64,000 nucleotides of DNA from Ehretia macrophylla. Taxonomy: Eukaryota; Streptophyta; Magnoliopsida; Boraginales; Ehretiaceae. Below are positions 913 to 29,877 of the stretch, one piece after another. Position 1 is the first letter of the stretch, and every line of letters starts with the position of its first letter. Where the stretch lies: the NCBI GenBank assembly GCA_037974665.1, contig CM075767.1, positions 27,491,498-27,555,497 on the forward strand, in the 5' to 3' direction. The position numbers and the translations under genes are program-made. The notes under the pieces are model-generated. The model worked only from the letters and a program-made list of their open reading frames with translations, made no database searches and was not told the origin of the DNA.

Positions 913-3869
913 TGTGACACCCCGAACCCAGTACTTCATTAATTGCATTCATTAAATGGTTAACTTATATGTAATTTAGCTAATTACTTTATTTTTTTAT
1001 ATTTCCATAAATTTAAATATTTCTTTTCATGCATTTTATATTTTTATAAAATACTACATATTTTTAGGGGACTATAGCCCCTAACCGTGCGAGCATTGCA
1101 TATCGGGATCAACGGGAAAAAATTCGCGAAATGTCTGATGAATAGTACCAGCGGGATTTTTCCAGATTTTTCAGATTTTTGGCCTTTTATTTTGCTGAAA
1201 TTTAATCACCCAAATGTCCATTTACCCTTACTAAAATACCCTATTTGCTTGCCCTACCCTTTGACCATCTAATGAGAATATTAAAAGCCAAGAAACAAAA
1301 AAAAAGGGGTCAAAAAAATGGCCAAAAAAGAGTTACGGGAATAGTAACTTCTCAAAAAAAAAAATTACTCCTTGCTTCATTCTTGCTTCCATTGCTTCCC
1401 AAATTGGTTGTGCTTCATCCTTAGGACCTTAAGACCATTCTTTGATATTCAAAAGAGGTGAGGGTGCATTCTATTTTTGTATTAAATTCAATTAAAATTT
1501 GTATTATTATTTTTGTGATCTAATATTGTAGTGGTTTAATCTTTGTTCCGTTGATTCTTATATACTCTAATGACTTCATAGAATATGTTTGATGGTTTAA
1601 AATGCTTGTTGAATGCTTGAAAATGAAAATGGCACATGGGGAAGATGATGAATAGTACTAAACTAGGGTTTTCGAAAAAAGTTACAATTTATTCGATTCG
1701 AGGCTTCTAGTAGTTGCTAATTAGGTCCATAAGCGTGGGAAAAATGTTAATTGCACTTGTTATGTTCAAAATTTGAGAAATTTGATCAAAATAGGCTACT
1801 TTAATAAGGGGTTTCGGGTTTAACTTGAATCCGGGCACGTTTCGAGATTATGACTAGTCTTTATTAAGTATTGAAACCTTAGAAGTGCTTTCGTTTCGCT
1901 TGTTTGGGTTCCGAAATTGGTACTTGTAGTGTAAACCCACAAAGAGGCATTTTTGGTGTTTTCGTGTACTTGTGCTCTAGGTTATGATTTGGAGGTTCTA
2001 AATGAGGTATTTAGGTATCCTTAGATTGGTAGGATGGTTAGCTAACTTAACTTGATCATTGAATTCTGATAGGAAGCTAAATAGCCTAGTTGAACAAAGG
2101 GGAAATGAATGAATTAATTGTTTTAGTACTTGTATTGCTTTGTAGTTGCTCATAGTGTGTCTAAATGCTATTCTAAGGTATGTGTGAGCTTTTGGTTAAG
2201 TTTTGTGAAAAGTATAATATTGACCTCTTTGTGTTCGCAAAGTTAATCTCATGATAATTGCTTTATAATTGAGTAATTAAATGTTTATATGCCTTTGTGT
2301 AGTGTACGTATTATAGTAGTGAAGTCTCGTGAATTAAGTTGCTTGGCTTACATGGATTTGGTTGAGTATGAATTTAGAATGGACTAAAGGAATTAGTAAT
2401 GAACCATGGTAATAATTGTTGTTAGTTGATTCTTGATTGATTGGATAAATGTTTAAATGTACTTATGTAACAAGTTCATCTATTCGGAGAAGTTGTGAGT
2501 TAAGTTATATCGATACTAGTTAAAGATTGAGTAACATGTTTATATTGCTTATTAATTGCATTATATGTGTAAAGATACGCTTATATAACTTATTGGTTAG
2601 ATGTTATATAGTGTTTCTACTTATATGAATGGCTATGTATATGTTATTTATTATGCTATTGTCTTTGTCTAATACTTAGAAATTAAAGAATGTTGCATAT
2701 AGTTGATTATATTAGGTAGTGATAATTAAAGGGAATTAATGCTTTTGGCGAATATTGAGGGAATCTTGGCTTAATTCGCGCAGGTTTGGCTTCCTAAAAG
2801 GTGAGGGACCTGCATCCTTACGTGCATTATAGCTTATTTTCTTGCTAAAAGAGTATATTGTTTAGTATAATTGCGTAATTGATATATGCTTATTGTTGCT
2901 AAATTGTAACTTGGTGCGAGGACAACCTACTTTTTGTCCTTAAATGTGTTTACTGATTATATTGTCATTGTTATCATTCTTGCATTGCATCGTGGTTGCG
3001 CAACCTCATTGTCGTGGCGGATGCGATGGCCTCGCTGGGCGGAATCGGGCTTGCCAGTGTTGGTTGCCTTTGCTCCGTCTGCTATTCCCTCACTCGCCTG
3101 GTCCGGAGATTGCCAGGGGGTGTTAGGTCGTAGGATCGGGTACATCCGGAGTACCCATTGGTGTAAGGGATGCTGGCATATCGAGATTGAGATCGTGGTT
3201 CGTGGATCGGGGATCGAAGGTTTGGAGTGATAAGGGTTATCAATTGTATCCTTTTAAAATGTGGTATTAGAATTGTTATTTACTGTTTATCTATTGTATT
3301 AATTGTGTTAAGTTGCTGCATTGCACGTCCCCGGTAGACCTTATCCCTCACTGAGCAATTGTGATTGCTCATACCTCGCTAAACATGTTTCAGGTGGTGC
3401 AGTTGGAGGAGTTGCGTTGGTTGCTGTGTACTATTACTTGAGATTGGAGTGATTGCTTGCTAAACTGTAGAAGACCTTGCTTGTCTACTTTATGTTCTAT
3501 TTTGGAGCCTAAGGGCTTATGTAAATATATTTGAGTGGTTGTAATTTGAAAGCTAAGTGGATGTAGTAAGTGTTATGGAATTGTGGCATGTAATAACTTA
3601 TGCTTCTGCTTCTAGCTACGTTGCATGCTTGTATGTGTTTATATTGTCTTGTGTTGCTTAAGGCTCGGATGGCCTTGAAGTTGGGATTTCAATTAGAAAT
3701 GTTGTTCCTTTGCTTCGTGTTTTATTTGAATGCTTACAGGTTTCCAGAATGTCCACGGTACAGGGAAAACTCTGTCCGTTTTTCATAAAATATGTTCCTG
3801 GGTTGGGATGCAGTTGAGAATAGCATGGTTACTAGAGCCTCCGGTCTCGTGAGGGATCGGGGCGTTACA
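913..3869 (+). repeat. N1 5' LTR
   Basis: 2957 bp, TG..CA. From left to right it holds an AT-rich start, a CT-rich stretch near 1365-1440, a splice-donor-like AG|GTGAGG (intron would start at 1458), and a long AT-rich middle. Next comes a GC-rich island at about 2990-3160 opening with the palindrome GGTTGCGCAACC (2994-3005). A perfect 8-bp hairpin (3352-3371) and TTTCAG|G ending at 3393 follow. The short ORFs inside lack convincing starts and family matches. Confidence 0.92.
3352..3371 (+). promoter_or_regulatory. LTR hairpin of N1 (second copy 7757-7776)
   Basis: TGAGCAAT-TGTG-ATTGCTCA forms a perfect 8-bp stem with a 4-nt loop. It sits just after CCTCAC and 22 nt before a TTTCAG|G. A hairpin of different sequence occupies the same place in the other LTR families in this window. 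Its function is unknown. Confidence 0.6.
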
Positions 3870-3871
3870 GG

Positions 3872-3887
3872 TGGTATCAGAGCTTAG
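3872..3887 (+). promoter_or_regulatory. N1 primer binding site (initiator-Met tRNA type)
   Basis: TGGTATCAGAGC lies two bases after the end of the 5' LTR. It complements the 3' end of plant initiator methionine tRNA and primes minus-strand DNA synthesis. Confidence 0.92.
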
Positions 3888-3908
3888 ATGCTCTCAACCG
3901 GGATAGGG

Positions 3909-3930
3909 TCCTCGGACTGCTGGGTAGTGA
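3909..3930 (+). promoter_or_regulatory. N1 conserved leader motif (possible packaging signal)
   Basis: CCTCGGACTGCTGGGTAGTGA lies ~22 nt past the PBS. Counterparts lie at a similar distance in N2, A, B and C (consensus roughly TCTCGG-n2-TG-TGGGTA-R-n-G). Because N1 codes for nothing, a cis-acting role in packaging or dimerisation is inferred, not shown. Confidence 0.5.
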
Positions 3931-5280
3931 ACCTCGAGTGCATGCTTGTGAAATGTATCTTGATTAGGTGTGTGCTTCGTGTGCCTTGAGAATGTGAGTG
4001 TCTTTGGTGCAATCTTGTATCCTGAACTTAATATGTGATCTATGTGATAGTTATGTGTACTGTGTGTTAAATACTTGTCAAGTGTAGTGATATAGCTAAT
4101 CATGAATCGAATTGATCTTATGAATTGCTACTTGCTCGAAATATTGATTGTAACGTGTATACTTGAGTATCTCGGCATAGTTGTGTTGTGAATTGTATTC
4201 ATTGCATGTGACTCATATTTGAACTATCTTGTTGATTAACTTTGTGTTATAAAACTTCTGGTTATATAATAGCTTGTGTGATATATGTCATAATCTCCTG
4301 ATATATGAACATTACATCAATTACATTAGGTGATATCTTGGCATTCATGCATTGTCCCCTTAAATCGGTAAGTAAGCATTCTCCCCTGAAAGAGATGGCC
4401 ATTGATGCTGACTGGTGAGAGAATAATGGTTCAAGCGGCTATTGGGATCAGTGAAGGGATTTGATGCCCCGATGTTAAATTTGAACTCTCTTGGCACTTC
4501 TTAAACGGTACTTCTTGGCTGGAACTCCTATTTGGGAATCTCGGATAGATCTTCTAGTTGGCGTCATATATGGAGGTCTTATTTGATACTCTTATTCAAA
4601 ATAATTCATGTTTATGAGTATTGGTCAGTATTCTTTGCGCACACTCCCACTTGGATTTCTTGTTCGGGATTTTACCTATGGTACCACCTTGATATTTTTA
4701 TTGGGTATTTTCTTCAGTATTTTTGTCTGGTATTCTTGCCTAGAGATTATTTGGTATTTCCTCTGGACTACTGGTATAACGAGCATATTGGGGATTCTTA
4801 TATGGTGATTCATAATTAGAGAGATTCTTATTCTAACTTCTGGATTCGTATACTTATTTGGAGCCTTTATTTGGCATCCTTAATCAGATTTATTGGTGGT
4901 ATTTTCTCGGAGTCCCAAGCCGGACATCTAATTAGGCCTTTATTTGGCAATCTTGAGCCTTTATTTGACAGTTAGAGTTGGGATTCACCGGACTTCCTTC
5001 TTGGGAATTTCTTGATATTATAAGGGCATTTTGGATATTAGCTGCATACTCTTCTTAATGGGATTTCTTTTGGTGCTCTCTCAGCATTAGTGAATGGCCT
5101 CCTCGTGTGACATTCTTACCGGACTCCTATTGGGTATTTTCATAGGAGCCTTTATTTAGCTACCCTACTCGGGTTTCCTTCAGTGACGTTCGCTCTTCTT
5201 AGTTTCCTTCGGCATTACACTTCTTGACTTCAAGTCCAACGAAAACTATTGCAGTTATTGGAAGTCATTTTAGCTCAAGA
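3931..5280 (+). other. N1 internal region, non-coding, degenerate short repeats
   Basis: No retroelement protein domain in any frame. From about 4380 the sequence repeats loose variants of TTTATTTGGCATCCTT and GGTATTYTT at irregular intervals of 20-40 nt. The internal region of N2 is built the same way on the opposite strand. The longest reading frames (95 aa at 4532, 66 aa at 4608) look like by-products of this T-rich repeat. I see no known gene. Confidence 0.6.
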
Positions 5281-5316
5281 AATTGCGAGGATGCAATTTT
5301 TCTAAGGAGGGGAGGA
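5281..5316 (+). promoter_or_regulatory. N1 pre-PPT hairpin and polypurine tract
   Basis: AATTGCG-AGGA-TGCAATT (5281-5298) forms a stem with one G-U pair at the loop. The purine tract AAGGAGGGGAGGA (5304-5316) follows and ends exactly at the 3' LTR. Polypurine tracts prime plus-strand synthesis. The hairpin occurs in the same place in all six elements that have a PPT here. Confidence 0.8.
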
Positions 5317-8274
5317 TGTGACACCCCGAACCCAGTACTTCATTAATTGCATTCATTAAATGGTTAACTTAGATGTAATTTAGCTAATTACTTTATTTTT
5401 TTTATATTTCCATAAATTCAAATATTTCTTTTCATGCATTTTATATTTTTATAAAATACTGCATATTTTTAGGGGACTATAGCCCCTGACCGTGCGTGCA
5501 TTGCATATCGGGATCAACGGGAAAAAATTCGTGAAATGTATGATGAATAGTATCAACGGGATTTTTCCAGATTTTTCAGATTTTTTGCATTTTATTTTGC
5601 TGAAATTTAATCACCCAAATGTCCCATTTACCCTTACTAAAATACCCTATTTGCTTGACCTACCCTTTGACCATCTCATGAGAATATTAAAAGCCAAGAA
5701 ACAAAAAAAAGGGGTCAAAAAAATAGCCAAAAAAGAGTTACGGGAATAGTAACTTCTCAAAAAAAAAATTACTCCTTGCTTCATTCTTGCTTTCATTGCT
5801 TCCCAAATTGGTTGTGCTTCATCCTTAGGACCTTAAGACCATTCTTTGATCTTCAAAAGAGGTGAGGGTGCATTCTATTTTTGTATTAAATTCAATTAAA
5901 GTTTGTATTATTATTTTTGTGATCTAATATTGTAGTGGTTTAATTTTTGTTCCGTTGATTCTTATATACTCTAATGACTTCATAGAATATGTTTGATGGT
6001 TTAAAATGCTTGTTGAATGCTTGAAAATGAAATGACACTTGGGGAAGATGATGAATAGTGCTAAACTAGGATTTTCGAAAAAAGTTACAATTTAATTCGA
6101 TTCGAGGCTTCTAGTAGTTGCTAATTAGGTCTACAAGCGTGGGAAAAATGTTAATTGCACTTGCTATGTTCAAAATTTGAGAAATTTGATCAAAATAGGC
6201 TACTTTAATAAGGGGTTTCGGGTTTAACTTGAATCCGGGCACGTTTCAAGGTTATGGCTAGTCTTTATTAAGTATTGAAACCTTAGAAGTGCTTTCGTTT
6301 CGCTTGTTTGGGTTCCGAAATTGGTACTTGTAGTGTAAACCCACAAAGAGGCATTTTTGGTGTTTTCGTGTACTTGTGCTCTAGGTTATGATTTGGAGGT
6401 TCTAAATGAGGTATTTAGGTATCCTTAGATTGGTAGGATGGTTAGCTAGCTTAACTTGATCATTGAATTCCGATAGGAAGCTAAATAGCCTAGTTGAACA
6501 AAGGGGAAATGAATGAATTAATTGCTTTAGTACTTGTATTGCTTTGTAGTTGCTCCTAGCGTGTCTAAATGCTATTCTAAGGTATGTGTGAGCTTTTGGT
6601 TAAGTTTTGTGAAAAGTATAATATTGACCCCTTTGTGTTCGCATAGTTAATCTCATGATAATTGCTTTATAATTGAGTAATTAAATGTTTATATGCCTTT
6701 GTGTAGTGTACGTATTATAGTAGTGAAGTCTTGTGAATTAAGTTGCTTAGTTGACATGGATTTGGTTGAGTATGAATTTAGAATGGACTAAAGGAATTAG
6801 TAATGAACCATGGTAATAATTGTTGTTAGTTGATTCTTGATTGATTGGATAAATGTTTAAATATACTAATGTAACAAGTTCATCTATTCGGAGAAGTTGT
6901 GAGTTAAGTTATATCGATACTAGTTAAAGATTGAGTAAACATGTTTATATTGCTTATTAATTGCATTATATGTGTAAAGATACGCTTATATAACTTATTG
7001 GTTAGATGTTATATAGTGTTTCTACTTATATGAATGGCTATGTATATGTTATTTATTATGCTACTGTCTTTGTCTAATACTTAGAAATTAACGAATGTTG
7101 CATATAGTTGATTATATTAGGTAGTGATAATTAAAGGGAATTGATGCTTTTGGAGAATATTGAGGGAATCTTGGCTTAATTCGCGCAGGTTTGGCTTCCT
7201 AAAAGGTGAAGGACCTGCATCCTTAGGTGTATTATAGTTTATTTTCTTGCTAAAAGAGTATATTGTTTAGTATAATTGCGTAATTGATACATGCTTATTG
7301 TTGCTAAATTGTAACTTGGTGCGAGGACAACCTACTTTTTGTCCTTAAATGTGTTTATTGATTATATTGTCATTGTTATCATTCTTGCATTGCATCGTGG
7401 TTGCGCAACCTCATTGTCGCGGCGGATGCGATGGCCTCGCTGGGCGGCATCGGGCTTGCCATTGTTGGTTGCCTTAGCTCCGTCTGCTATTCCCTCACTC
7501 GCCTGGTCCGGAGATTGCTAGGGGGTGTTGGGTAGTAGGATCGGATACATCCGGAGTACCCATTGGTGTAAGGGATGCCGGCATATCGAGATTGAGATCG
7601 TGGTTCGTGGATCGGGGATCGAAGATTTGGAGTGATAAGGGTTATCAATTGTATCCTTTTAAAATGTGGTATTAGAATTGTTATTTACTGTTTATCTATT
7701 GTATTAATTGTGTTAAGTTGCTGCATTGCACATCCCCGGTAGACCTTATCCCTCACTGAGCAATTGTGATTGCTCATACCTCGCTAAACATGTTTCAGGT
7801 GGTGCAGTTGGAGGAGTTGCCTTGGTTGCTGTGTACTATTACTTGAGATTGGAGTGATTGCTTGCTAAACTATAGAAGACCTTGCTTGTCTACTTTATGT
7901 TCTGTTTTGGAGCCTAAGGGCTTATGTATATATATTTGAGTGGTTGTAATTTGAAAGCTAAGTGGATGTAGTAAGTGTTATGGAATTGTGGCATGTAATA
8001 ACTTATGCTTCTGCTTCTAGCTACGTTGCATGCTTGTATGTGTTTATATTGTCTTGTGTTGCTTAAGGCTCGGATGGCCTTGAAGTTGGGATTTCAATTA
8101 GAAATGTTGTTCCTTTGCTTTGTGTTTTATTTGAATGCTTACAGGTTTCCAGAATGTCCACGGTACAGGGAAAACTCTGTCCGTTTTTCATAAAATATGT
8201 TCCTGGGTTGGGATGCAGTTGAGAATAGCATGGTTACTAGAGCCTCCGGTCTCGTGAGGGATCGGGGCGTTACA
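5317..8274 (+). repeat. N1 3' LTR
   Basis: 2958 bp, same order of parts as the 5' copy: donor-like site with intron start at 5862, palindrome at 7399-7410, hairpin at 7757-7776, acceptor-like site ending at 7798. It is followed by TSD GATTG (8275-8279). Small ORFs shared with the 5' LTR, such as the identical 62-aa frames at 3600 and 8005, are shared because the LTRs are duplicates. Confidence 0.92.
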
Positions 8275-10101: not shown

Positions 10102-10114
10102 GGCACTGATACCA
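10102..10114 (-). promoter_or_regulatory. Copia primer binding site
   Basis: The minus strand reads TGGTATCAGTGCC, one mismatch from the usual TGGTATCAGAGCC. It is followed two bases away by the TG edge of the LTR at 10117. This places the 5' LTR of the minus-strand copia element to the right, consistent with gag to the left. Confidence 0.65.
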
Positions 10115-10116
10115 CT

Positions 10117-10334
10117 TGAAAGGGTGCTAGCCAACATAAGATATCATGTCATAACATAATCATAAGTTGGATTCAAGATCGAGAATGTCATGCATGGACA
10201 CCTTGACATAGCCGAAAACTACATAGGCTATCTACAAAAATTTTGCAAGTTTCGTAACAAAGATCAACATGCTAACATGTCATTATACCCATTGATTATC
10301 AACACATATATATATAAACAAAAGGAGGTTCATA
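10117..10334 (-). repeat. Copia 5' LTR, portion nearest the PBS
   Basis: Begins TGAAAGGGTG on the plus strand next to the PBS and is interrupted by the solo LTR after TSD TCATA (10330-10334). The other portion is 22956-23888. Without the insertion the LTR would be about 1.15 kb, running from TGTTGGGGCCC to CACCCTTTCA on the minus strand. Confidence 0.6.
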
Positions 10335-10808
10335 TGTAACACCCCGATCCCTCTCGAGACCGGGAGTTCTATCAATCAATCTAATCACAACCCAATTCTA
10401 AACTCGGGCATAAAATTTTTAGGAAAAGATGGACGGAGTCTCCCCTGTTTCTAGGCAAAATGCAAAACCTGCAATAGCATATAAGTGGACCAGCACCGTG
10501 TCCAACCATACAAACACCTCAAGGCCATTCGAGCCTTGTTTCTCAACAATTAAACACAACAAGTATACATACATTTCCAAGTACCCAGACTATTCTAACT
10601 CTTACTTTTAGACAATACAATCATGCATTGAAGTTAACTATACTAACTGAATACATAAACTAGCTTTTCAAATCACTTCAATAATCTAGTAAAACTTAAA
10701 TTACATTCCTTTTAACATTAAATACATACAACACATGAAACATACATCTTTGCATCTTTGACAACTCAAGCCACATAGCACGCAAGACAACTCTTCAAGC
10801 ATGATCTT

Positions 10809-13296
10809 TGTCACGCCCCGACCCAACCCCCAAGCTAAAGGTTAAGTCCGGACCCGACACACGGACAGAGTCTCCCCTGTACCGTGGACATTCCAAAAAC
10901 CTGTAAACACCTAAACAAAGTCCCAACAATACAATACAAGCTTTTCTCAATTAAACAACAAAGCTATAAGGCCATCCGAGCCTTATGGTACACAATATCT
11001 CCAAAACACACAAGCATGCGAGAACTTGTTATCAGCATAGTTTTATAATCATAACATTCTAGGAAATCAATAAAACAACTTAAAGGATAATGCATTCTAC
11101 ATTAACCATCCACTCCCAAGCATGCAAGGAAATAAAGGCAAGAATAAAAGTTATTACAAGACATCGCTTCCAATTCTACACCACAATCTACTATCCTTCA
11201 ATTTGCACAACAACATATACATAGCCCTTAGGCCACAAAATAGTACGTAAAGTAATCAGATGAATCTTCCACATAGCAGCAAATTCATTAACCACCTCAA
11301 GCTATCAGGCACAGCAACTAAGGTAAAGGCTCAATCTGAACTTCTTCTTCCTCAACTAAATCAACAAGCTGGGGATCACCCTCAGCGTCTCCTGAAACAG
11401 ATATTGAGGTATGAGCAACCACTGTTGCCCAGTGAGGGATATAGTCCCGGGGCGTGCAATGCAACATATAATACAATTATACAACAATAACACTTAGACA
11501 ATTAAAGAAACAACGATAACTTAAATAACCACACATTTAAAAGGATACATTTCACTCAATCCCCTATACACCAATCTTCACTGGTCTTCAATCACGATCC
11601 ACGAACCACGATCACGATCACGATAAGCCGGCATAACCCCAATCACTCCAGTGGGTGTACTCCGGATGTACCCCGAATCCTACGACCCAACATCCCCTGG
11701 CAATCTCCGGACCAGGCGAATGAGGGACTAGGGCACGGAGTTTGAATATCCACCGGCAAGCCCTCTGCCGCCCAGCCGATATTCAACACATCCGCCCCTG
11801 ACACTATGGTTGCGCAACCACTATGCAATGCACTTAACGATGGCAAGTTAATAGCAATAATATAAGCATTAACACATATGAGGATCAACAAAGTAGGTTG
11901 ACCTCGATGCAATCAGAATAGAACAATTATATAAGCAAATATGCAATTTTGCAAAGAGACATTACAAAATAACCATAGGATTATACCAAAAGCTCCAAAT
12001 CAACTTAATATCACATATAAACACTCAAGAAGTCATGCCGTGCATTTAGAAGTGTGAGACAACCGAAATTACACTTAACCCCTTCATTTTACAAACTATT
12101 TCTCTTCCAAACCAAAGTTAATGATTTCATTTTCAAAGGAAACTCTTCCAACCTTCTAACTAACTCTCAAGGTACCCTCTCAACCCTCTAACTCATTCAA
12201 ATGCCCGCGTTTACCCCGAAAGCCCTAAATTCCCTCTTATGGCTTTAAACTACACATACATTGTCCGGGCTTCAAACAAGGGATATCAAGGCATCTATAG
12301 CACCTAGGTAGCCTAAGGATACTAGAATTGAAGCCCGAATCCACCCGGATTCGCATTAACCCCAAAAGCCCCAAGGTAAAGTCGGATATTTTCCATTTTT
12401 AGGCGATTTAAGGGCAATGCAAGTGCACGGGGCTATTAGGTTATCTTCACTAGCACCTAAGGCATCTATTAGAAGCATTAAAACAAGCTAATTCGAGCAA
12501 TTACACAAAACCCTAGAAAAAATGTCACTATTCACCCTAAAAATCAAACTAACGATTCTAACCGTTTAAATTGCGAAACGACAGTTCAAATGTGTTCTCT
12601 AGCATTCATATAGATGGTATATTAGCATAGATAACAATTACAATGGCATTTAATCATATTTTCAACAAATCAAGAAATGAGCAACTATTTAAAAATGCAA
12701 AAACAAGTCGTGAAATCCCTCACCAATGCGCGTAGGAGCCTCTAGGAAGCTTGCACACACCCTAATCTAGTTTCTCTAGGCTTGGAGTGGCTTGAATCGA
12801 AGAGTTGAAGAGCAAAAATGGTTTTTCCTCACTGTTTGCTGCTGTCGGCCAGCTCCTGCTCCAATTTCAGCTTTTATTTATTTTTTCTTTGTTATCTAAT
12901 GAGCTAAATAAGGTTATTTAATGATTGGCTAAGGTAGGGTCTTGATTGGGTGCTTATGTGGCTTCTAAAATGCGCGTAGTAAGCTTAAAAATGAGCCTAA
13001 GGTGAAACATGTGTGCTAGTTAATTAAATCTTTAAGTTAGTTACGTAACACTATTCATTCAACTTCAAAAGTCATTTTCTAAACGAGCTCTCCTATCGCC
13101 TCTAGCTCAAATGCACATTTTTCTCATTACTTTAATAATTAATATGATTTAATAAAAATGCTAATTAACTAATAGAAGGCAATTTAAAAATGGAGTGAAT
13201 AGTAGTCATAAAAGTCAGTTAGTAAGGCACAGAAATAAATGCGCAAACAAGGGATGCAACAGTAATTAAATGCATGGCTAAATCTCGGGCGTCACA
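10809..13296 (-). repeat. Element A 3' LTR
   Basis: 2488 bp; on the minus strand it starts TGTGACGCC and ends GGGGCGTGACA. Sense features: donor-like G|GTGAGGG (intron start 12723), palindrome GGTTGCGCAACC (11808-11819), hairpin 11412-11431, and TTTCAG|G (intron end 11392). The pol frame runs ~78 nt into it, to 13219. Confidence 0.93.
11412..11431 (-). promoter_or_regulatory. LTR hairpin of element A
   Basis: In the sense (minus) strand TGGGCAAC-AGTG-GTTGCTCA forms an 8-bp stem with one G-U pair. On the opposite strand that pair would be A-C, so pairing is better in the sense transcript. The same hairpin is at 35678-35697 in B. Confidence 0.55.
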
Positions 13297-18335: not shown

Positions 18336-18341
18336 CTTAAG

Positions 18342-20828
18342 TGTCACGCCCCGACCCAACCCCCAAGCTAAAGGTTAAGTCCGGACCCGACACACGGACA
18401 TAGTCTCCCCTGTACCGTGGACATTCCAAAAACCTGTAAACACCTAAACAAAGTCCCAACAATACAATACAAGCTTTTCTCAATTAAACAACAAAGCTAT
18501 AAGGCCATCCGAGCCTTATGGTACACAATATCTCCAAAACACACAAGCATGCGAAAACTTGTTATCAGCATAGTTTTATAATCATAACATTCTAGGAAAT
18601 CAATAAAACAACTTAAAGGATAATGCATTCTACATTAACCATCCACTCCCAAGCATGCAAGGAAACAAAGGCAAGAATAAAAGTTATTACAAGACATGGC
18701 TTCCAATTCTACACCACAATCTACTATCCTTCAATTTGCACAACAACATATACATAGCCCTTAGGCCACAAAATAGTACGTAAAGTAATCAGATGAATCT
18801 TCCACATAGCAGCAAATTCATTAACCACCTCAAGCTATCAGGCACAGCAACTAAGGTAAAGGCTCAATCTGAACTTCTTCTTCCTCAACTAAATCAACAA
18901 GCTGGGGATCACCCTCAGCGTCTCCTGAAACAGATATCGAGGTATGAGCAACCACTGTTGCCCAGTGAGGGATATAGTCCCGGGGCGTGCAATGCAACAT
19001 ATAATACAATTATACAACAATAACACTTAGACAATTAAAGAAACAACGATAACTTAAATAACCACACATTTAAAAGGATACATTTCACTCAATCCCCTAT
19101 ACACCAATCTTCACTGGTCTTCAATCACGATCCACGAACCACGAGCACGATCACGATAAGTCGGCATAACCCCAATCACTCCAGTGGGTGTACTCCGGAT
19201 GTACCCCGAATCCTACGACCCAACTTCCCCTGGCAATCTCCGAACCAGGCGAATGAGGGACTAGGCCACGGAGTTTGAATATCCACCGGCAATCCCTCTG
19301 CCGCCCAGCCGATATTCAACACATCCGCCCCTGACACTATGGTTGCGCAACTACTATGCAATGCACTTAACGATGGCAAGTTAATAGCAATAATATAAGC
19401 ATTAACACATATGAGGATCAACAAAGTAGGTTGACCTCGATGCAATCAAAATAGAACAATTATATAAGCAAATATGCAGTTTTGCAAAGAGACATTACAA
19501 AATAACCATAGGATTATACCAAAAGCTCCAAATCAACTTAATATCACATATAAACACTCAAGAAGTCATGACGTGCGTTTAGAAGTGTGAGACAACCGAA
19601 ATTTCACTTAACCCCTTCATTTTACAAACTATTTCTCTTCCAAACCAAAGTTAATGATTTCATTTTCAAAGGAAACTCTTCCAACCTTCTAACTAACCCT
19701 CAAGGTACCCTCTCAACCCTCTAACTCATTCAAATGCCCGCATTTACCCCGAAAGCCCCAAATTCTCTCTTATGGCTTTAAACTACACATACATTGTCCG
19801 GGCTTCAAACAAGGGATATCAAGGCATCTATAGCACCTAGGTAGCCTAAGGATACTAGAATTGAAGCCCGAATCCACCCGGACTCGCATTAACCCCAAAA
19901 GCCCCAAGTTAAAGTCGGCTATTTTCCATTTTTAGGCGATTTAAGGGCAATGCAAGTGCACGGGGCTATTAGGTTATCTTCACTAGCACCTAAGGCATCT
20001 ATTAGAAGCATTAAATCAAGCTAATTCGAGCAATTACACAAAACCCTAGAAAAAATATCACTATTCACCCTAAAAATCAAACTAACGATTCTAACCGTTT
20101 AAATTGCGAAACGACGGTTCAAATGTGTTCTCTAGCATTCATATAGATGGTATATTAGCATAGATAACAATTACAATGGCATTTAATCATATTTTCAACA
20201 AATCAAGAAATGAGCAACTATTTAAAAATGCAAAAACAAGTCGTGAAATCCCTCACCAATGCGCGTAGGAGCCTCTAGGAAGCTTGCACACACCCTAATC
20301 TAGTTGCTCTAGGCTTGGAGTGGCTTGAATCGAAGAGTTGAAGAGCAAAAATGGTTTTTCCTCACTGTTTGCTGCTGTCGGCCAGCTCCTGCTCCAATTT
20401 CAGCTTTTATTTTTTTTTCTTTGTTATCTAATGAGCTAAATAAGGTTATTTAATGATTGGCTAAGGTGGGGTCTTGATTGGGTGCTTATGTGGCTTCTAA
20501 AATGCGCGTAGTAAGCTTAAAATCGAGCCTAAGGTGAAACATGTGTGCTAGTTAATTAAATCTTTAAGTTAGTTACGTAACACTATTCATTCAACTACAA
20601 AAGTCATTTTCTAAACGAGCTCTCCTATCGCCTCTAGCTCAAATGCACATTTTTCTCATTACTTTAATAATTAATATGATTTAATAAAAATGCTAATTAA
20701 CTAATAGAAGGCAGTTTAAAAATGGAGTGAATAGTAGTCATAAAAGTCAGTTAGTAAGGCACAGAAATAAATGCGCAAACAAGGGATGCAACAGTAATTA
20801 AATGCATGGCTAAATCTTGGGCGTCACA
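18342..20828 (-). repeat. Element A 5' LTR
   Basis: 2487 bp, near-duplicate of 10809-13296. The GGTTGCGCAACC palindrome has one change here (GGTTGCGCAACT). It is followed on the plus strand by TSD ATCTT (20829-20833), after which the solo LTR resumes. Confidence 0.93.
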
Positions 20829-20891
20829 ATCTTTCACGTAACCACGAACTTTCCAGCTAACATGGCATTCCTGAAATGTGGTGGTGAGGAG

Positions 20892-20916
20892 TGAGTATAC
20901 TCAACACGTATACTCA
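20892..20916 (-). promoter_or_regulatory. LTR hairpin of the solo LTR
   Basis: TGAGTATAC and GTATACTCA form a perfect 9-bp inverted repeat around a 7-nt loop, flanked by CCCTCAC in the sense strand. It sits where N1 and A carry unrelated stems, just before TTTCAG|G (20871). It is also found at 59621-59645 in N2. Confidence 0.55.
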
Positions 20917-22955
20917 GTGAGGGCGAGACATATATCGAGGTGGAGAGAAAGAAAGTCGTGCAATGCAAATAAGACAGTTAAGCAATATAACTGACATGTA
21001 AGCAATCAATATAAACAATCAATTCAATAATCAATTAATAAAAGCATTAACACAACCATTCAAAGCTATACCACACTATGAAGGCTATGGTTCATTCAAA
21101 TGAGTAATGTACCGATCATGATTTCGGTGACTTTAACGATGACGCGCTGGCTCACCCACCTTATAATTTCTTTTTAGAGTACTCCGGACATACTCTGTCA
21201 ATTCTACAACCCAAAACTCCCTGGGCGGCAACCCAAGCGAGAACGGGAATAGGACACGGAGCTAGAGCAACCAACCCTGGCAGCCCGAGACTACCCAGAG
21301 AGGCCCGTCACTCACGCGCCTGACACAATGCAATGCAATACGGAGAATATAACGATAATCGAGCAAGGCACTGAAGTGCAGGTTAGTAACAACATGCGAT
21401 ACAATAAACATTTACAATCAATAAAATAACAAGAACAACACTAACAAGCATTATCAACAATTGATATATAATTCAATCATAATCAAGTATAACGAGCATA
21501 ATAATCCACAATAAGCATTATATAAGCAAGCATTATAAAAATCAACTAAAACACTAAATGACCCCAACTTTCTCAATGCTACTACTTCCAAACAAGCTAT
21601 GAGTTTTGGAAACCGACTTCACCACTCCTCCTAGAACACCATAAGGCAAGTCTAAAGACCACGAAACCCTACTTTACCCTAGAATTTCTGCAAAGCCCCG
21701 ATTTCCCCCTTTGCTCGTTTGAACTACAACTACCTCAACTAATCACCCAACCAATGTCTTAACTGCACCGAAAGTGCTTCCATGGCCTCCCGAGACAATG
21801 CCATCACGCAAAACGAGAAAACGCTAAACTCGACCTAGACGACCCCAACATGCACTAAGCCATTTTTCTCCATTTTTCCATTACACAATCCAATTTAACC
21901 ATAGATTTTGTTATTCTAGCATATCTAGCACCTTCCTACATCAACAGAACGCAAAACGAAGCAACTTTAAAGTAACGAGGGTTTACTATTCATATTTTAC
22001 TATTCCATTAGCATTTAAAATTTCAATTGCTATATTCAACCGTAGAAAATGCTAAAAGTCTACAAATACATGTTCTACAATTGTCGAGGAACATTCTTTA
22101 AGCATCAAAACGAATAAAATAACAATCTATGGCTAAAACCCAAAAATTAAAGTTTAGACATAATTATTTCAAATGCGCAAATAATGATGAAACCCTCACC
22201 TTAGACGCTCTTAGACGCTAGGAAAACCACGCTGGAAGCCTCGGACACAACCCCGTGCAAGCTCTCGTGAATATTTGAAGTTTGGAAGTTGAAATCTTTT
22301 TTTTTTCTTTTCCCTCAAGTTTCGGCCTTTGCTTCTTTTTTTCAGCTTTGTGCTTTGATTTTGCAATGTGTTATGCATAAATAAGATGACAAGTTGAAGT
22401 CAAATGGTCAAGGCTTGGTCAAAGGTTATTTAAGTTGGTCAAATAAGCTTATTTTAGGCATTTTAAGGCTAAAACAACTAACACAAATCTAATTCTAGTT
22501 AACAACAACTAAAATACTAAAATTAAAACACTAAATACTACTTTTTCACTATTTGCTGAGGACTAGAAAACGCTCTCTAACTATCGCTCTCGATATGCTA
22601 TGCACAAAACGACGACGAACGAATAACACCTAAATATTATGGAATATAAGGAAAAATATAATTTTTGAAAAGCAACATAGTTCAAAATTTACTTCGGCTC
22701 GGAGCTACTTTTCATTTAATTGAAAACCGAGCATTAATGTGCAAGAAAATTAAACCAGGTAACATAAATATGAAAAGTAGTTGATACTCCGATAAAATAA
22801 TTAACTCAAGTATTATTTAATTACTTCTAAAAGAAAAATGAAAATAATGCTACAAATGAATGTTTAACTAAAAATAAACACAAAATTCAATGCTAACATT
22901 TAAGATGACACTTAATTAAATGCCATTAAATGCATGCCGGGTTCGGGTTATCACA

Positions 22956-23737
22956 TCATAGGTATACCTCACTAGTAGAACACTTTGGAGAAGGTAATGT
23001 TAAAAGACAAGCTATTGAACCCTTCTAACTTGAAGGCCCTAGTTAGTCCACCAAGCATCCAAAGCTTAACCCCACCTTGAAGATAGATTGTGCTAGTATA
23101 TCTTCAATGTACGAAGCTATGTAAATGTGGTTTTGGATCAAAAGGAAAAAGCTTCATGAACTACATGCCAGGGCTGAAAGTTCTAGCTCAAGGTTGAAGA
23201 AGATGAAGTTCTCTCTCCTTTCAAATTATGCCTTGGCCGAATTGTATGTGCATGTATGTGTAGTTGTCACATGATGAGAGAGAGTTTTGTCATCTAATAT
23301 AAGCTAATAATAAATTAAGTGACCAATCACTATTGTCACATTTTCTTGACAAGCCATGCAAGCCATTTGATTTAAATCATTAGCTTTAGATGATGAAAGA
23401 TGATCATCTTCTCTCTCCTCTACCCCTTGGCCGAAATTGCAAGTCGGTAGTGAGAGAAGATTGTCATCTTTTATTATATATATAAAACATACTCATATAA
23501 TTATATATATAATGTTACTTTATTAGTTGGTCAATCACAATTGCTTCATTCTAAACTAAAAACCATGCAAGCCTTAGGATTGATGACATGGACTATCCTA
23601 GTCATCAACCTCTACATGCAAATGCCACATGTAATTACCTAGTCATTAAATTGCAATTTCACCTTTTGACAACTAAGACGATGACGTGACATTTCACAAA
23701 TCACATCATCATTACACATATACATATATATAAACAC

Positions 23738-23814
<77 letters not shown>

Positions 23815-23888
23815 TTTTTCCAATTTTAATCTCTATTAGAATAAACATATTAAAACAAGTTTTCAATAATTATAGTTGGGCCCCAACA
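22956..23888 (-). repeat. Copia 5' LTR, distal portion
   Basis: Resumes after the right TSD of the solo LTR and ends at ...GGGCCCCAACA, giving a TGTTGGGGCCC start on the minus strand. It holds a (TA)n tract. The other copia LTR is off the window, so its TSD cannot be checked. Confidence 0.55.
23741..23808. repeat. (TA)34 microsatellite
   Basis: 68 bp of uninterrupted TA, flanked by shorter TATA-rich runs. It lies inside the copia LTR and accounts for the Ile-Tyr frame on the minus strand. The length may vary between alleles and is prone to sequencing error. Confidence 0.98.
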
Positions 23889-23954
23889 GTTTTAATAATT
23901 ATAATTTGACCCCAAAACTTTTCAAAATTACACTTTTGGCTCAAATACTAACAT
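23889..23954. other. Short spacer between two copia LTRs
   Basis: 66 bp, AT-rich. TAATAATTATAATTTGACCCC here imperfectly repeats the LTR edge before it (23858-23888). No gene or clear boundary signal. Confidence 0.35.
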
Positions 23955-24516
23955 TGATGACTCTTAATACCTTAAAGCCACCAACCACAAAATACATCCT
24001 TCCGGTGAACTTATTCATGATACTTATTAGTGTGTGACCTTTTAGATTCATAATCGTGTACCGATGAGGGACCTGATAAACCTCCTTATCTATTTCGGAA
24101 ATGTCTCCGTCATTTATCGAAATACCCTCATGCTTATAAGTGACGCACTAGCAACGAATGTATCATGAGAATGTATACGATAATGAAGATGACATCTTTC
24201 ATGAATCTATTTAACCGTCAAGAATTAGCGTGCAGTCATATCCTTCTGTTATAAGTGCCCCGATCGGGAAAGGACCATGAAATGGTTAAGGCCACATCCG
24301 ATACTATGTATAAATCTAAATCGGTGAAATGAGAGATGACCACCATGGAAAAACACATTTCCATCACTTCATAGTCGCCTTGGCCAAGGACTTGCTCGTT
24401 TACCAACCGATCTCAAATATCATAGGACATTGCCTCTAGTCGGAGGTTAACATATCCTATCTTGACAATTACCTATCGGTTCATACCACAAGACTAAAAT
24501 GCAAAAGGTCGTAACT
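23955..24516 (-). repeat. Second copia-type LTR, left portion (boundary uncertain)
   Basis: The join of 23955-24516 and 29878-30435 is ~1.1 kb. It starts TGATGACTC on the plus strand and ends GGCATATCCCCAACA, i.e. TGTTGGGGATATGCC on the minus strand, a common start of plant copia LTRs. I found no PBS to the left, no polypurine tract to the right and no matching TSD, so it is a truncated LTR or an old solo LTR. Element D split it. The left edge is a guess. Confidence 0.45.
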
Positions 24517-25888
24517 GTGAAACCCCACTTTTCTACTTTAACTTGATTTACGTGCTTTGTCTCGTTTTGCATGCATATGACATGTTTATATGCTATAGGG
24601 TCTAGAATGTTATAATTTTGATATCAATACTCCTAATACGTGCTAAATGTGCATTCATGAAATTTTCATAAAAAACGGAGTCAGAAATTTTATCGTCGAT
24701 TTTCAATGAATAGTATTTTCGAAACACGTCCGCTAAAATTTTGAAAATGGTCTTTTTAACCCTTATAGACCTAGTCCACGGACTTTAATAGACCTGTGTT
24801 TGATGAAAACGGTTTTGAAATTGGCTTAAGAATTTATTAGGGTTTTTACACCGACTTTTGCGAAAATCGAGTTTTAAGCCGACTCGGGTGAAATTGTTTG
24901 ATTGTAAAACTTCTTGTCACCTAAAAATATTTTACTTGAGCTAGCTTGGGTGTTGAATAATTGTTTTGAACTTTGGTGATCAAGAAAACGCATTTAAAGT
25001 CAAGAAAACACAAAAAAATGCTAAGTTTCAACTTTGACTTTCATTTAAATGGTTGACCAACAAGCTTATATCACCAACACACACTCACAAAGCACAAAAA
25101 CACCCACAATTACACACACATTGCCGAGAGGGAGAAGAGAGAAAAGAGAAAAGAGTTTTCAAGGTTTTCCAAGCAAAAAATCAAAGAAAAACCTAGTTTT
25201 TGTCTGTAGAACTTCGTGCCAACTTGGATTCCGCTTGTTGGGCACGCATTGCACGCATTGCACACATTCCTAGGCTTATATCGCATCAAAGGTGAGAGAA
25301 AAATTCTAGATCTCAAAAGTTATCTTTTACATCTTTGCGTATAAATGAAAATTGAACCGTTAGAATTCTAATATGATGTTAGATTATTGTTCCTTGCATG
25401 CTAGGGATCATTTAGCTGTAATACTACGAGTTTTTATCGGTTGTAGCATAACTTTTATTTTTTAGGTATTTAAATTTGATTAATTTGTTCAATGTTGATT
25501 AAATTGAGTTGTGTTGATCGGAATCGATTGCCGTTGATTTCTAAATGTTTGATAATTACGTGGTAGCGCCGTTGTAATGCCAAATTTTCGATTATGATGT
25601 TTGGGTGAAAATCCAGAAATTTCAGCCATGACACACTAGAGTTTTAGGGTTGTTGAGCATGATTTGGATGTGTTTTGGCTGGTTTCCGAGGGGGTTAATG
25701 TAGTTGGTTGAATGGGTGAGTGATATAAACTGATTTGGAGTTGTTTGGATTAGTACAATGTAGGATATGATTATTTGAAGTTAGGTTGTCTTTCTTCAAA
25801 ATGTTAGATTGAGCCTTAGTGGATTGAGTGTGGGTTGAGTAATTGAATTGTGAGTTGTTGACGAGTAAATTAGGGTTGATTGTGAGTC
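24517..25888 (+). repeat. Element D truncated 5' LTR
   Basis: About 1.37 kb aligning with 27448-28815. It keeps the proposed promoter side: a TATATC motif near 25070, an ACAC- and purine-rich stretch, and donor-like AAAG|GTGAGAG (intron start 25292). It has lost the hairpin and acceptor-like site. Confidence 0.88.
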
Positions 25889-26272
25889 GGATGTATTCTT
25901 ATGTAGGATGGCCGAGTTATTGCCTATGCTTCCAGGAAGCTGAAGCCTTATGAGGTGAATTATCCGACTCATGATCTTGAGTTGGCAGTAGTTGTCTTCG
26001 CACTGAAGAAGTGGCGTCATTATCTATGGGGCAGTAAGTTCGAGATTTTCACTAATCATAAGAGTCTGAAGTACTTGTTCTCACAGAAGGAGTTGAATAT
26101 GCGCCAACGGAGGTGGATGGAGCTTCTTGGAGATTATAATTGTTCTATCAATTATCTGCCTGGCAAGGCAAATGTTGTAGCAGGTGCTCTCAGCCGGAAG
26201 GCGAGTGTTGCTTGTTTGGCTGTCAAAAATGGGAGATTCTTGAGGAATTCACTTATTGGAGACCGGGGTTGA
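25889..26272 (+). pseudogene. Element D RNase H remnant
   Basis: The frame opens inside the [11 protein letters not shown] region of RNase H, where CAG has become TAG (25904-25906). It continues with [19 protein letters not shown] (catalytic Glu) and TNHKSLKYL, where the usual Asp of TDHKSL is Asn, as in element A. It runs through [10 protein letters not shown] to a 1-nt frameshift near 26228 and stops at 26272. Upstream RT sequence is absent because of the LTR-pol fusion. The closest relative in the window is C. Confidence 0.85.
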
Positions 26273-27537
26273 CTTAGGTTGGGGTGATGTGTTCACATCT
26301 CCGTATTCAACCTTTATTGTTGTCTCAGATCAGGGAAGCTCAACAATTTGATGTTAAACTTCAGAAGATCAAGGATCAGATCACGAATGATCAGTCTGAC
26401 TTTAAAGTGCTTGAGGATGGTATTCTTCGGTTTCGGAACAGGGTATGTGTTCTCCATGAACCGGGCTTGAGGCGAGGTATTCTGGAGGAAGCTCATAATT
26501 CTAAGTATACTATTCATCCCGATGGAACCAAGATGTATCAGGATTTGAAACAACATTACTGGTGGAATAATATGAAGAGGGAGGTTGCTCAGTTTGTATC
26601 TAGATGTTTGACTTGTCAGAGGGTGAAAGCCGAGAATCAACGACCTGCAGGTTTGCTTCAGCCGTTGGCTATACCAGAGTGGAAATGGGAGCATATTACG
26701 ATGGATTTCGTCACTGGTTTGCCTAGAACTCCGAGGGGTAATGATGCAGTTTGGGTTGTCGTGGATCATTTGACGAAGACAGCTCATTTTATTGCGATGA
26801 GGATGGGAGATGAGGTGACAAAGTTGACGGGTCTTTATTTGGATCAGATTGTTAGACTTCACGGTATTCCATCTAGTATTGTCTCAGATCGAGAATGTTC
26901 AATTGATCAGGCAGAGAATGCTTACGGCGCAGAGTAGATTCAAGAGTTATGCTGATAAGAATCGTCGGGATTTGGAGTTTACAGTCGGAGATCGGGTTTT
27001 CTTGAGATTGTCTCCTCGTAAGGGGTTTGTTCGTTATGGTAAAGGTGGAAAGCTGAGTCCGAGATTTGTTGGGCCGTTTGAGATTACCGGCAGGGTTGGT
27101 AAGTTGGCATATCAGTTGGGTTTACCGGAGAACTTCTCTAATGTCCACGATGTATTTCACGTGTCTAATTTGCAGAAATATAATCCAGATCCTTCTCATA
27201 TTCTTGAGCCAGAGCCGTATAGCTTCGTGAGAATCTGACTTATGATGAGCATCCGATTCGTATTCTTGATCAGATGGAACGAGAGTTGAGGTCGAAGAAG
27301 ATTCCGATGGTTAAGGTGTTGTGGAAGCATCACGGTATCGAGGAAGCTACTTGGGAGAGACGGGAGCAGATGCAGCACCAGTACCCAGATCTGTTCAATA
27401 CATCAAGTAAGAATTTCGAGGGCGAAATTTCTTTAAGGGGGGGAGAATGTGAAACCTCACTTTTCTGCTTTAACTTGATTTACGTGCTTTGTCTCGTTTT
27501 GCGTGCATATGACCTGTTTATGTGCTATAGGGCCTAG
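26273..27537 (+). pseudogene. Element D integrase and chromodomain-like tail, with internal deletion
   Basis: 26284-26880 encodes the integrase zinc finger (HNSKYTIHPDG ... CLTCQ) and the first catalytic Asp (TMDFVTGLP). The frame breaks at about 26893, where IVSDRE joins [10 protein letters not shown]. About 340 bp present in C, including the catalytic Glu region, are gone. The joined ends share a short GAGA-type match, which suggests illegitimate recombination. The rest ([26 protein letters not shown]) continues in another frame. Near 27216 a further frameshift precedes the tail VLWKHHGIEEATW. The last frame runs through the polypurine tract into the 3' LTR. Confidence 0.85.
27412..27447 (+). 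promoter_or_regulatory. Element D pre-PPT hairpin and polypurine tract
   Basis: AATTTCG-AGGG-CGAAATT (27412-27429) is a perfect 7-bp stem, followed by AAGGGGGGGAGAA (27435-27447) touching the 3' LTR. Compared with A, B and N2 the central G-C pair is T-A, a paired change. Confidence 0.85.
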
Positions 27538-29877
27538 AATGTTATAATTTTAATATCAATACTCCTAATACGTGCTAAATGTGCATTCATGAAATTTTCA
27601 TAAAAAACAGAGTCAGAAATTTTATCGTCGATTTTTAATGAATAGTATTTTCGAAACACGTCCGTTAAAATTTTGAAACTGGTCTTTTTAACCCTTCTAG
27701 ACCTAGTCCACGGACTTTAATAGACCTGTGTTTGATGAAAACGGTTTTAAAATCGGCTTAAGAATTTATTAGGGTTTTTACACCGACTTTTGCGAAAATC
27801 GAGTTTTAAGCTGATTCGGGTGAAATTGTTTGATTGTAAAACTTCTTGTCACCTAAAAATAATTTACTTGAGCTAGCTTGGGTGTTGAATAATTGTTTTG
27901 AACTTTGGTGATCAAGAAAATGCATTTAAAGTCAAGAAAACACAAAAAAATGCTAAGTTTCAACTTTGACTTTCATTTAAATGGTTGACCAACAAGCTTA
28001 TATCACCAACACACACTCAAAAAGCACAAAAACACCCACAATTGCACACACATTGCCAAGAGGGAGAAGAGAGAAAAGAGAAAAGAGTTTTCAAGGTTTT
28101 CCAAGCAAAAATTCAAAGAAAAACCTAGTTTTTGTCCGTAGAACTTCGTGCCGACTTGGATTCCGCTTGTTGGGCACGCATTGCATGCATTCCTAGGCTT
28201 ATATTGCATCAAAGGTGAGAGAAAAATTCTAGATCTCAAAAGTTGTCTTTTACATTTTTGCGTATAAATGAAAATCGAACAGTTAGAATTCTAATCTGAT
28301 TTTAGATTATTGTTCCTTGAATGCTAGGGATCATTTAGCTGTAATACTACGAGTTTTTATCGGTTGTAGCATAATTTTTATTTTTCGGGTATTTAAATTT
28401 GATTAATTTGTTCAATGTTGATTAAATTGAGTTGTGTTGATCGGAATCGATTGCCGTCGATTTCTAAATGTTTGATAATTACGTGGTAGCGCCGTTGTAA
28501 TGCCGAATTTTCGATTACGATGTTTGGGTGAAAATTCAGAAATTTCAGCCATGACACACTAGAGTTTTAGGGTTGTTGAGCATGATTTGGATGTGTTTTG
28601 GTGGTTTCCGAGGGGGTTAATGTAGTTGGTTGAATGGGTGAGTGATAGAAACTGATTTGGAGTTGTTTGGATTAGTAGAATGTAGGATATGATTATTTGA
28701 AGTTAGGTTGTCTTTCTTTAAAATGTTAGATTGAGCATTAGTTGATTGGGTGTGGGTTGAGTGATTGAATTGTGAGTTGTTGACGGGTAATTTAGGGTTT
28801 GTTTGTGTGTTTAATGCATGTTCGGTTAGATGACCTACTTTGTCATCTAACTTAGTTATATGTTGTTAAATTGGTTATTGATGTTATTATGATGATAATA
28901 TGATTATTGATGATTATTGATGATTATTGATTGATGATTGATGTCGGGAGATAAACAGTTCTGCTACACTGTCCTCTTGTGAATGATTGATGTTTATTAT
29001 TATTGTTGGGTCTCTAGTATGTGTGTGCCACCTCTCGGGCAGCATTGGGCTGTCGGGTTGATAATGGCATGACTATCAGAGATTGCCTCCAGCTCGCATG
29101 ACAGAGGTGTCATGGAGGGAGAGGTTATTGGGGGTACCCCGGGTGCGTGAGTTTATGGGAGTCACAAGAAGGCTATTATGATCGTGATGGTGTTTGGAGC
29201 TACACCAACTAGAGTATCCTTTATTGAATGGTCATATAGTTATGTGATGATATTATTATTGTTGTTATTGTGTGTTTACTGACTCAAAGGATTATTCCAA
29301 GGAGTTTAGTAGACCTTGCTCGAGATCTATCGGATCCTCGCTGGGCTTATTTTATATAAGCTCACTCTCTATTATTGCATGCATACAGGTGTACTTTCGC
29401 AGGATTACAGGTACGTGCCTCCTGAAGAGGAGAATGTGGAAAACGTGCCTTACGTGGATGAGTCCTACGTTCCAGAGTCTTATCTGTGATGTCGTACATG
29501 TTTTATTATCTTGTAAATTAACTTAGTAGACTTTTATCTGCTTTGTAGTTTATAATGTATAAGATGTTGATAAGTTAATGAATTAGTTGATGTTGTCTTA
29601 GTAGCCTTTCTTTTGTTTATGATTAGGTTGCTAGATTGGCTCAATATGTTTTTGTATTGTATATTAAGGTTTATGTATTATGTTGGAACGGAGGCGTATA
29701 ACGAGGAATGATTATTGTATAATATAGTTATGATGTATGTTGTATGATTGTGGAGTTGATGTATGTTGTTCTATTGAGGTTGGTTTAGGACCTCGGTATC
29801 CTATTTACTGTCGTTATACTGCCGAAATTCCGTTGCGTCCTAACTGATAATAGGAGGGGTCGAGTTGGGGCGTGACA
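27448..29877 (+). repeat. Element D 3' LTR
   Basis: 2430 bp, complete. Contains TATATC near 27998, donor-like AAAG|GTGAGAG (intron start 28215), a GATTATTGAT-rich stretch near 28900-28945, hairpin 29342-29364 and acceptor-like ATACAG|G ending 29388. Confidence 0.92.
29342..29364 (+). promoter_or_regulatory. LTR hairpin of element D
   Basis: TGGGCTTAT and ATAAGCTCA pair over 9 bp with one G-U, around a TTTAT loop, right after CCTCGC. C has the same hairpin with one pair broken (45721-45743 and 53197-53219). Confidence 0.5.

Follow-up and report, generated by a model that had tools for sequence, protein, structure and literature searches.

A hairpin over the putative branch point of a putative intron within the long terminal repeats of Ty3/gypsy retrotransposons of Ehretia macrophylla

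Introduction

In the passages of a 2025 review that deal with the subject (PMC12786077), the long terminal repeat (LTR) retrotransposons of plants are described as generally lacking introns, Ogre and EVADE being among the exceptions, and the expression 'intronless LTR' denotes elements without introns. The corresponding passages on Ogre, EVADE and BARE1 (PMC12786077, PMC6317226, PMC3735527) report that their RNA is partly spliced, that the unspliced RNA serves as the genome, and that the introns occupy the internal coding region, either between open reading frames (ORFs) or where gag ends or over the protease; a hairpin at the acceptor is not described in these passages. Retrotransposons must avoid copying spliced RNA and keep separate RNA pools, according to a passage of the BARE paper (PMC3735527). 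How transcripts are divided between translation and replication in LTR retrotransposons is an open question. Here, we analyzed a window of 64,000 nucleotides (nt) from Ehretia macrophylla (assembly GCA_037974665.1, contig CM075767.1, positions 27,491,498 to 27,555,497, forward strand), which is a nest of plant Ty3/gypsy elements with repeated, paired LTRs of 2.4–3.0 kb. We propose that these LTRs contain an intron which, as in Ogre, EVADE and BARE1, would be removed from part of the RNA, but which lies in the LTR itself and carries a hairpin at its acceptor.

A short hairpin immediately preceding an intron's 3′ splice site is also known from yeast, where such 'downstream stems' have been proposed to aid splicing, as stated in the passages on them in PMC12350175. 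The present case differs in that the likely branch motif is inside the stem, and in that the intron belongs to a plant, would measure 1.2–1.9 kb and is located in a retrotransposon LTR. Retroviruses such as HIV-1 have suboptimal 3′ splice sites, and their weak splicing preserves full-length RNA. The system proposed here would be similar in keeping splicing weak; however, the sequences are unrelated, and the intron sits in a repeated LTR, so that a copied spliced leader would erase it.

The long LTRs resemble those of the Retrosat2/RIRE3/RIRE8 Tekay (Del) group, as described in passages of PMC3485330 and PMC6317226, and the LTR ends are also alike (TGTGACGCCC...GGGCGTGACA in element A of the window and TGTCACACCC...GGGCGTGACA in that group). 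Judging only from LTR length, LTR ends and motifs, the elements seem to be Tekay-like. In the study of the Retrosat2 group (PMC3485330) 'intron' and 'hairpin' are never used and 'splic' appears once, and a literature search over titles and the beginnings of abstracts, which covered few subscription journals, did not find an intron within a plant LTR. Tekay elements are absent from the expressed set in the relevant passage of a sunflower study (PMC7730604), which may explain why an LTR intron would have gone unseen. Partial splicing itself is known; what would be new here is that a retroelement is partly spliced at a structured 3′ splice site located inside the LTR. An LTR intron with a covarying hairpin over its likely branch point, and with rare intronless copies that would record past splicing, makes the question of transcript division directly testable. 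It might also partly explain the great length of the LTRs and would alter the annotation of LTR regions, and a hairpin over the likely branch site could explain how very abundant plant retrotransposons retain full-length genome copies.

Results and Discussion

A hairpin is present at one place in the LTRs

The gag, protease, reverse transcriptase (RT), RNase H and integrase domains of element A were identified with Pfam in the Ty3/gypsy order; for the integrase, the core match was under the curated cut-off, and the zinc-binding and SH3 matches were over it. By this domain order and the presence of two LTRs, the elements of the window are Ty3/gypsy LTR retrotransposons.

A previous sequence-only reading of the window described inverted repeats at one fixed place in the LTR, and the seven for which it gave coordinates are all present. 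On the forward strand, the hairpins are located at 3352..3371 in the N1 5′ LTR (TGAGCAAT-TGTG-ATTGCTCA, with CTCA plus T as the putative branch point), at 7757..7776 in the N1 3′ LTR and at 29342..29364 in the D LTR (TGGGCTTAT-TTTAT-ATAAGCTCA). On the reverse strand, they were found at 11412..11431 and 18945..18964 in the 3′ and 5′ LTRs of A (TGGGCAAC-AGTG-GTTGCTCA in the former, with G-U at pair 3), at 20892..20916 in the solo LTR (TGAGTATAC-GTGTTGA-GTATACTCA), at 35678..35697 and 43217..43236 in the 3′ and 5′ LTRs of B (the latter with CACTCAC in place of CCCTCAC, and with the first base of its donor at 44530), at 45721..45743 and 53197..53219 in the 3′ and 5′ LTRs of C, and at 59621..59645 in the N2 LTR (TGAGTATAC-GTGTTGT-GTATACTCA, donor motif at 60906). 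The motifs reported to bracket the repeat are CCTCRC before it and CAGG after it; the B LTR with CACTCAC departs from the former and N2 from the latter, its CAGG acceptor having become CATG while the hairpin is kept (59621-59596, reverse strand). Counting both strands, there are 62 CCTCRC sites in the window, and a stem of at least 8 bp (G-U allowed, loop of 3–9) follows eight of them, all of which are LTR hairpins; as background, such stems start at 0.56% of the window positions on the forward strand and at 0.92% on the reverse strand.

We compared seven stem types, all from the same place in the LTR. The outer pairs TGRG/CTCA are common to them, with A-U or G-U at pair 3, and pairs 5–9 vary on both arms: pair 5 is C-G or T-A, pairs 6–7 are A-T or T-A, and pair 8 is T-A, C-G or A-T. 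The earlier description of the stems as nearly unrelated was overstated, because the four outer pairs are shared by all the listed types and N1 and A/B are, in addition, close relatives. It had correctly identified the odd pair of A, B and D, which lies at position 3, as a G-U pair of the sense strand, and the C hairpin as imperfect, since pair 2 is mismatched (TAGG/CTCA) in both C LTRs. The covariation input consisted of 27 strings, 19 from about 100 listed matches to the free-inner-stem pattern described below and eight from the window and the fetched loci. Over 11 distinct arm pairs, 40 of the 44 inner cells are paired; when the 3′ arms were shuffled, the mean was 25.5 paired cells and the maximum 39, so that none of 10,000 shuffles reached 40, although this control ignores kinship and is rendered optimistic by related copies.

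Genome-wide pattern searches were carried out in one plant genome (assembly of 1.58 Gb, 20 contigs). A pattern including only a flank upstream of the hairpin (GCATTGCACG, a gap and CCTCAC) gave 20,360 matches versus 2 for the reversed control, and a pattern in which the flanks and the four outer pairs were fixed and the inner stem was free gave 7,961 matches versus 0. Further stems recovered with the latter pattern include TGGGTAAC-TTTG-GTTACTCA, TGGGTAAC-TTCG-GTTACTCA, TGAGTAAC-TTG-GTTACTCA and TGGGCAAC-TTT-GTTGCTCA. A purine at position 5 of the stem was rejected as the mark of new stem types in general, since the 85 matches of this kind read mostly as decayed copies with the pair broken. 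The main fetched sample comprised 68 loci (L008–L075) with 1.5 kb of flank; L083–L088 are six further loci, and L076 and L089 are intronless LTR loci.

We conclude that the hairpin is real. The sequence-only reading had proposed selection on RNA structure without assigning a role to it; the two-sided changes at pairs 5–9 and the exchange of A-U and G-U at pair 3 support selection acting on the structure of the sense-strand RNA. It could instead be argued that the inverted repeat acts as DNA, as a cruciform or a protein site, or that it is neutral, and the perfectly palindromic arms of several families would be compatible with this. Nevertheless, the sense-strand G-U pairs of A, B, D and L083 would be G-T in DNA, and the spacing to the acceptor is nearly constant, and we find this explanation scarcely credible.

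The 3′ arm of the hairpin contains a likely branch point

Plant branch points follow the consensus YTNAY, about 18–45 nt before the AG; CTCAY is a plant branch-point motif, and 20–26 nt is a usual distance to the AG. The CAGG after the hairpin resembles a 3′ splice site, and in every stem type the CTCA of the 3′ arm and the next base form CTCAY. In 70 of the 71 rows obtained from the fetched loci the first AG ends 21–25 nt after CTCA, the exception being L029, in which CCG replaces CAG; these rows cover 66 of the 68 loci (L021 and L075 were outside the pattern), and four of them are sites repeated from overlapping loci. The distance is 20–24 nt at nine of ten window sites, 25 nt in N2 by way of a later AG that is not part of CAGG, and 22–26 nt in all six further loci. 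The acceptor reads (C/T)AG followed by G in 70 rows, nine window sites and five of the six further loci. From its sequence and position, the CTCAY of the 3′ arm is likely to be the branch point. The CCTCRC upstream of the hairpin was discarded as a general branch point because D, L085, L087 and the majority of the roughly 100 listed matches have CTCGC there, which lacks the branch A.

These observations bear on the possibility that the hairpin helps splicing, by bringing the acceptor closer to an upstream branch point (CCTCAC) and by hiding the intervening AGs, as the downstream stems of yeast would do. Such stems are reported for 21 of 88 yeast introns in the passages of PMC12350175, and at the sites of the fetched loci every AG between CCTCRC and the acceptor is inside the hairpin. 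The loss of the branch A from the upstream motif in the cases just mentioned, together with the constancy of CTCA in the 3′ arm, speaks against such a role, which we regard as rather unlikely. A downstream stem has at least 6 bp between the branch point and the acceptor; here the stem measures 7–9 bp or more, and its own 3′ arm forms the likely branch motif.

The LTRs contain a putative U2-type intron

On the forward strand, the putative introns extend over 1458..3393 (1936 nt, AAAGAG|GTGAGGGT ... TTTCAG|GTGG) and 5862..7798 (1937 nt) in the 5′ and 3′ LTRs of N1, and over 28215..29388 in the D LTR (1174 nt, CATCAAAG|GTGAGAGA ... CATACAG|GTGTAC). On the reverse strand, they correspond to 11392..12723 (GCATTG|GTGAGGGA ... 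TTTCAG|GAGACG) and 18925..20256 in the 3′ and 5′ LTRs of A (both of 1332 nt), 20871..22199 in the solo LTR (1329 nt, CGTCTAAG|GTGAGGGT ... TTTCAG|GAATGC, the type of the intronless L076), 35658..36991 in the B 3′ LTR (1334 nt), and 45697..46865 (1169 nt) and 53173..54343 (1171 nt) in the 3′ and 5′ LTRs of C. They show the GT donor, the AG acceptor and the spacing of a YTNAY-type motif that characterize U2-type plant introns.

A GTGAGRG resembling a 5′ splice site is located 1.0–1.9 kb upstream in the same LTR. One such donor motif was found 0.9–2.2 kb upstream at all ten window sites examined, and 1.05–1.49 kb upstream in 46 of the 68 fetched loci; because the scans required GTGAGRG and the 1.5 kb flank is too short for the N1 donor, these counts show position, not conservation. 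The bases before the donor are mostly AAG, otherwise GAG, TAG or TTG, with the exceptions of ACG in L059, TCT in N2 and ATT in L085. Plant introns of the U2 type are U-rich relative to exons; in eight window LTRs, the T content is 0.36–0.39 in the intron, 0.22–0.32 in exon 1 and 0.34–0.43 in exon 2. As a prediction from sequence, the LTR intron is well supported.

Two intronless LTRs match the predicted splice junction

If spliced LTR RNA is occasionally copied, LTRs lacking exactly this intron are expected. The end of exon 1 and the start of exon 2, separated by a free gap, were searched in four families. The solo/N2 type gave a single match, L076, with exactly CTAAG|GAAATG, and the N1/A type gave a single match, L089, with exactly CATTG|GTGGTG; the patterns allowed 31 and 18 spacings, respectively, and in each only the predicted one was matched. 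Both loci are solo LTRs of full length, ending in TG...CA and flanked by a 5-bp target duplication, L076 with 1363 nt (ATGGG) and L089 with 1163 nt (GTTTC), the latter inserted, as judged by eye, in the pol gene of another element. When L076 was compared with intron-bearing copies, there were two blocks of similarity, which adjoined at the predicted sites and overlapped by 3 nt. In the L076 family, the end of exon 1 with the donor intact is present in 6,681 copies versus 1 spliced copy; this ratio, which would place spliced copies at about one in thousands, is rough because the spliced pattern also required the exact start of exon 2. A DNA search with the L076 junction gave no second copy among 40 scored of 2,010 candidates. 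The sequences of L076 and L089 strongly suggest that both derive from reverse-transcribed spliced RNA.

An explanation without any LTR intron would be that both loci are chance deletions at microhomologies and that the hairpin has some other role. The junctions do carry AGG/GGTG microhomology, position pairs 1–2 kb apart that share a 3-mer within one LTR amount to 19,214 in A and 31,937 in N1, the families have thousands of copies, and two of the four gave no intronless LTR in searches for exact matches. Chance would, however, have had to produce the sole predicted junction independently in two families, among 31 and 18 spacings, and diverged families have like motifs at the donor and the acceptor. 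We consider this explanation very unlikely.

A model in which the hairpin restrains splicing

The reading that we favor, and hold to be somewhat probable, is that the LTR intron is spliced in some RNAs and kept in the genomic RNA, the branch-point hairpin restraining splicing. Each long LTR would contain a spliceosomal intron of 1.2–1.9 kb in the transcribed leader, and the hairpin would be its 3′ control element. Since the TGRG of the 5′ arm would pair with the branch motif in the 3′ arm, the stem would have to open before U2 small nuclear ribonucleoprotein binding. A closed stem would weaken the splice site, so that enough transcripts retain the intron as genome and others are spliced. Because copying of a spliced leader would leave the daughter LTR without the intron, persistence of the intron would require that the template is usually unspliced RNA. 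We have moderate confidence that the effect of the hairpin on splicing is restraint and not assistance.

Several observations weigh against this model. All the data come from one plant genome and from DNA only. Relative to shuffles, the folding energy of 75–101 nt around the hairpin is unremarkable in N1 (z −0.27), A (−0.52) and C (−0.58), being weak in D (−1.33) and lower in the solo LTR (−2.06) and N2 (−2.18); because it is mostly not unusual, the case for the hairpin rests on position and covariation, and the shuffle control of the latter is affected by kinship, as noted. In the C family, the second pair is broken in both window LTRs. At the place of the donor, L086 has GTAAGAAT instead of GTGAGRG; no clear donor stood out on inspection of L083, L084 and L088, and the acceptor of L084 is followed by A. 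The C/D-type and L087-type junction searches gave no match (exact matches only), and the microhomology of 3–4 nt at each junction found could, for either locus taken singly, have led to deletion without splicing. Finally, a contig scan yielded seven loci, six of which (L001–L006) lie on short contigs of bacterial assemblies (Mycobacterium, Streptomyces, Robertmurraya and others), encode a plant-type Ty3/gypsy RT and are probably plant contamination; of the foreign contigs, L005 and L006 alone extend into the LTR region, and neither has a clear hairpin as judged by eye. Among viral contigs, the query proteins had no relative. L001 contains CAG|GTAAGT within its LTR.

Alternatively, the hairpin could act in the unspliced RNA as a signal for packaging, export or dimerization and be intronic since only this RNA should carry the signal. 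Its intronic location, the presence of a second intronic hairpin with a TCCGGA-type loop about 200–300 nt upstream in several families and the great rarity of intronless LTRs are in line with this proposal; the loop sequence, however, lacks conservation, the acceptor follows at a near-constant distance, and the invariant arm is the branch-point motif, which leaves it improbable.

A broader and doubtful version, in which we place limited belief, is that the LTR intron toggles the transcript between messenger and genome. Spliced RNA would be translated and only unspliced RNA copied, and the intron would carry both the copying signals and a lock. The former would include hairpins displaying the palindrome UCCGGA, like dimerization loops, and the latter would consist of the branch-point hairpin and base pairs formed between CCCUCRC and the GUGAGGG donor. 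A copy made after splicing would be without the switch, and therefore intronless LTRs would be found at about one in thousands.

Other features of the intron and the exons

The second intronic hairpin, for example at 3138-3156 (forward strand), has the loop (A/T/G)TCCGG(A/G) and variable stems (GGGTAC/GTACCC, GGGATAC/GTATCCC, AGAGTAT/GTACTCT). TCCGGA is palindromic, as in dimerization loops, and in N1 and A it is also present in another loop. Its shuffle support is modest, with 84 of 10,000 shuffles reaching the observed value (56 rows from 87 sites), and a hairpin with this loop was not found in C/D.

The donor GTGAGGG (e.g., at 12723 and 22199) is the reverse complement of the CCCTCAC beside the hairpin, the R of CCCTCRC pairing with U (U-A or U-G). 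A helix between the two intron ends, GTGAGGG/CCCTCRC, was examined in 15 introns and partly rejected, the support being mixed. In A (two copies), B, C (two copies), D, L085 and L037, few other windows of the intron pair with the 5′ end as well as the true 3′ end does; N1 and the solo LTR show a middling gain, N2, L087, L020 and L016 almost none, and L086 lacks the pairing. Support was weaker against a second control, in which interior pieces were compared with the true 3′ end, with 0–44 of 122–218 pieces being as good, and 110 of 146 in L086.

A short acidic frame starts at the acceptor in phase 1 (first codon split G|GN) and ends in a stop. It was observed in the window at 11391-11318 (reverse strand) and 29389-29489 (forward strand) and, reading the loci by eye, in L085, L086, L087 and L010. 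The frame encodes GDAEGDPQLVDLVEEEEVQIEPLP in A/B, GEAEVNPQLIEEEEVYVDQNP in L085 and GVVEADPLEVIEEEEQVEVFP* in L087, is longer in C/D, and is absent from L083, L084 and the N1 type. Exon 1 was rejected as its coding start, the open stretch before the donor having no ATG in seven of seven LTRs. A donor-like GTAAGAAT in phase 1 is located at the end of pol, about 40–45 nt before the 3′ LTR, in A, B, C and D. Joined to the acceptor of the 3′ LTR, it would add the acidic tail in C/D and a stop in A/B; for C/D, 0 spliced copies matched this junction.

At an E value of 0.001, no Pfam chromodomain, the domain that follows the integrase in Tekay chromoviruses, was detected in the C fragment or in the scanned ORF of A; PF00385 is present in some homologues. 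The solo LTR is a single LTR at 22955-10335 (reverse strand) with the target duplication TATGA, and its exon 2 is interrupted by the whole of element A. At 24516-25913 (forward strand) there is a truncated D-type LTR, comprising the first 1.4 kb or so only, which adjoins pol fragments.

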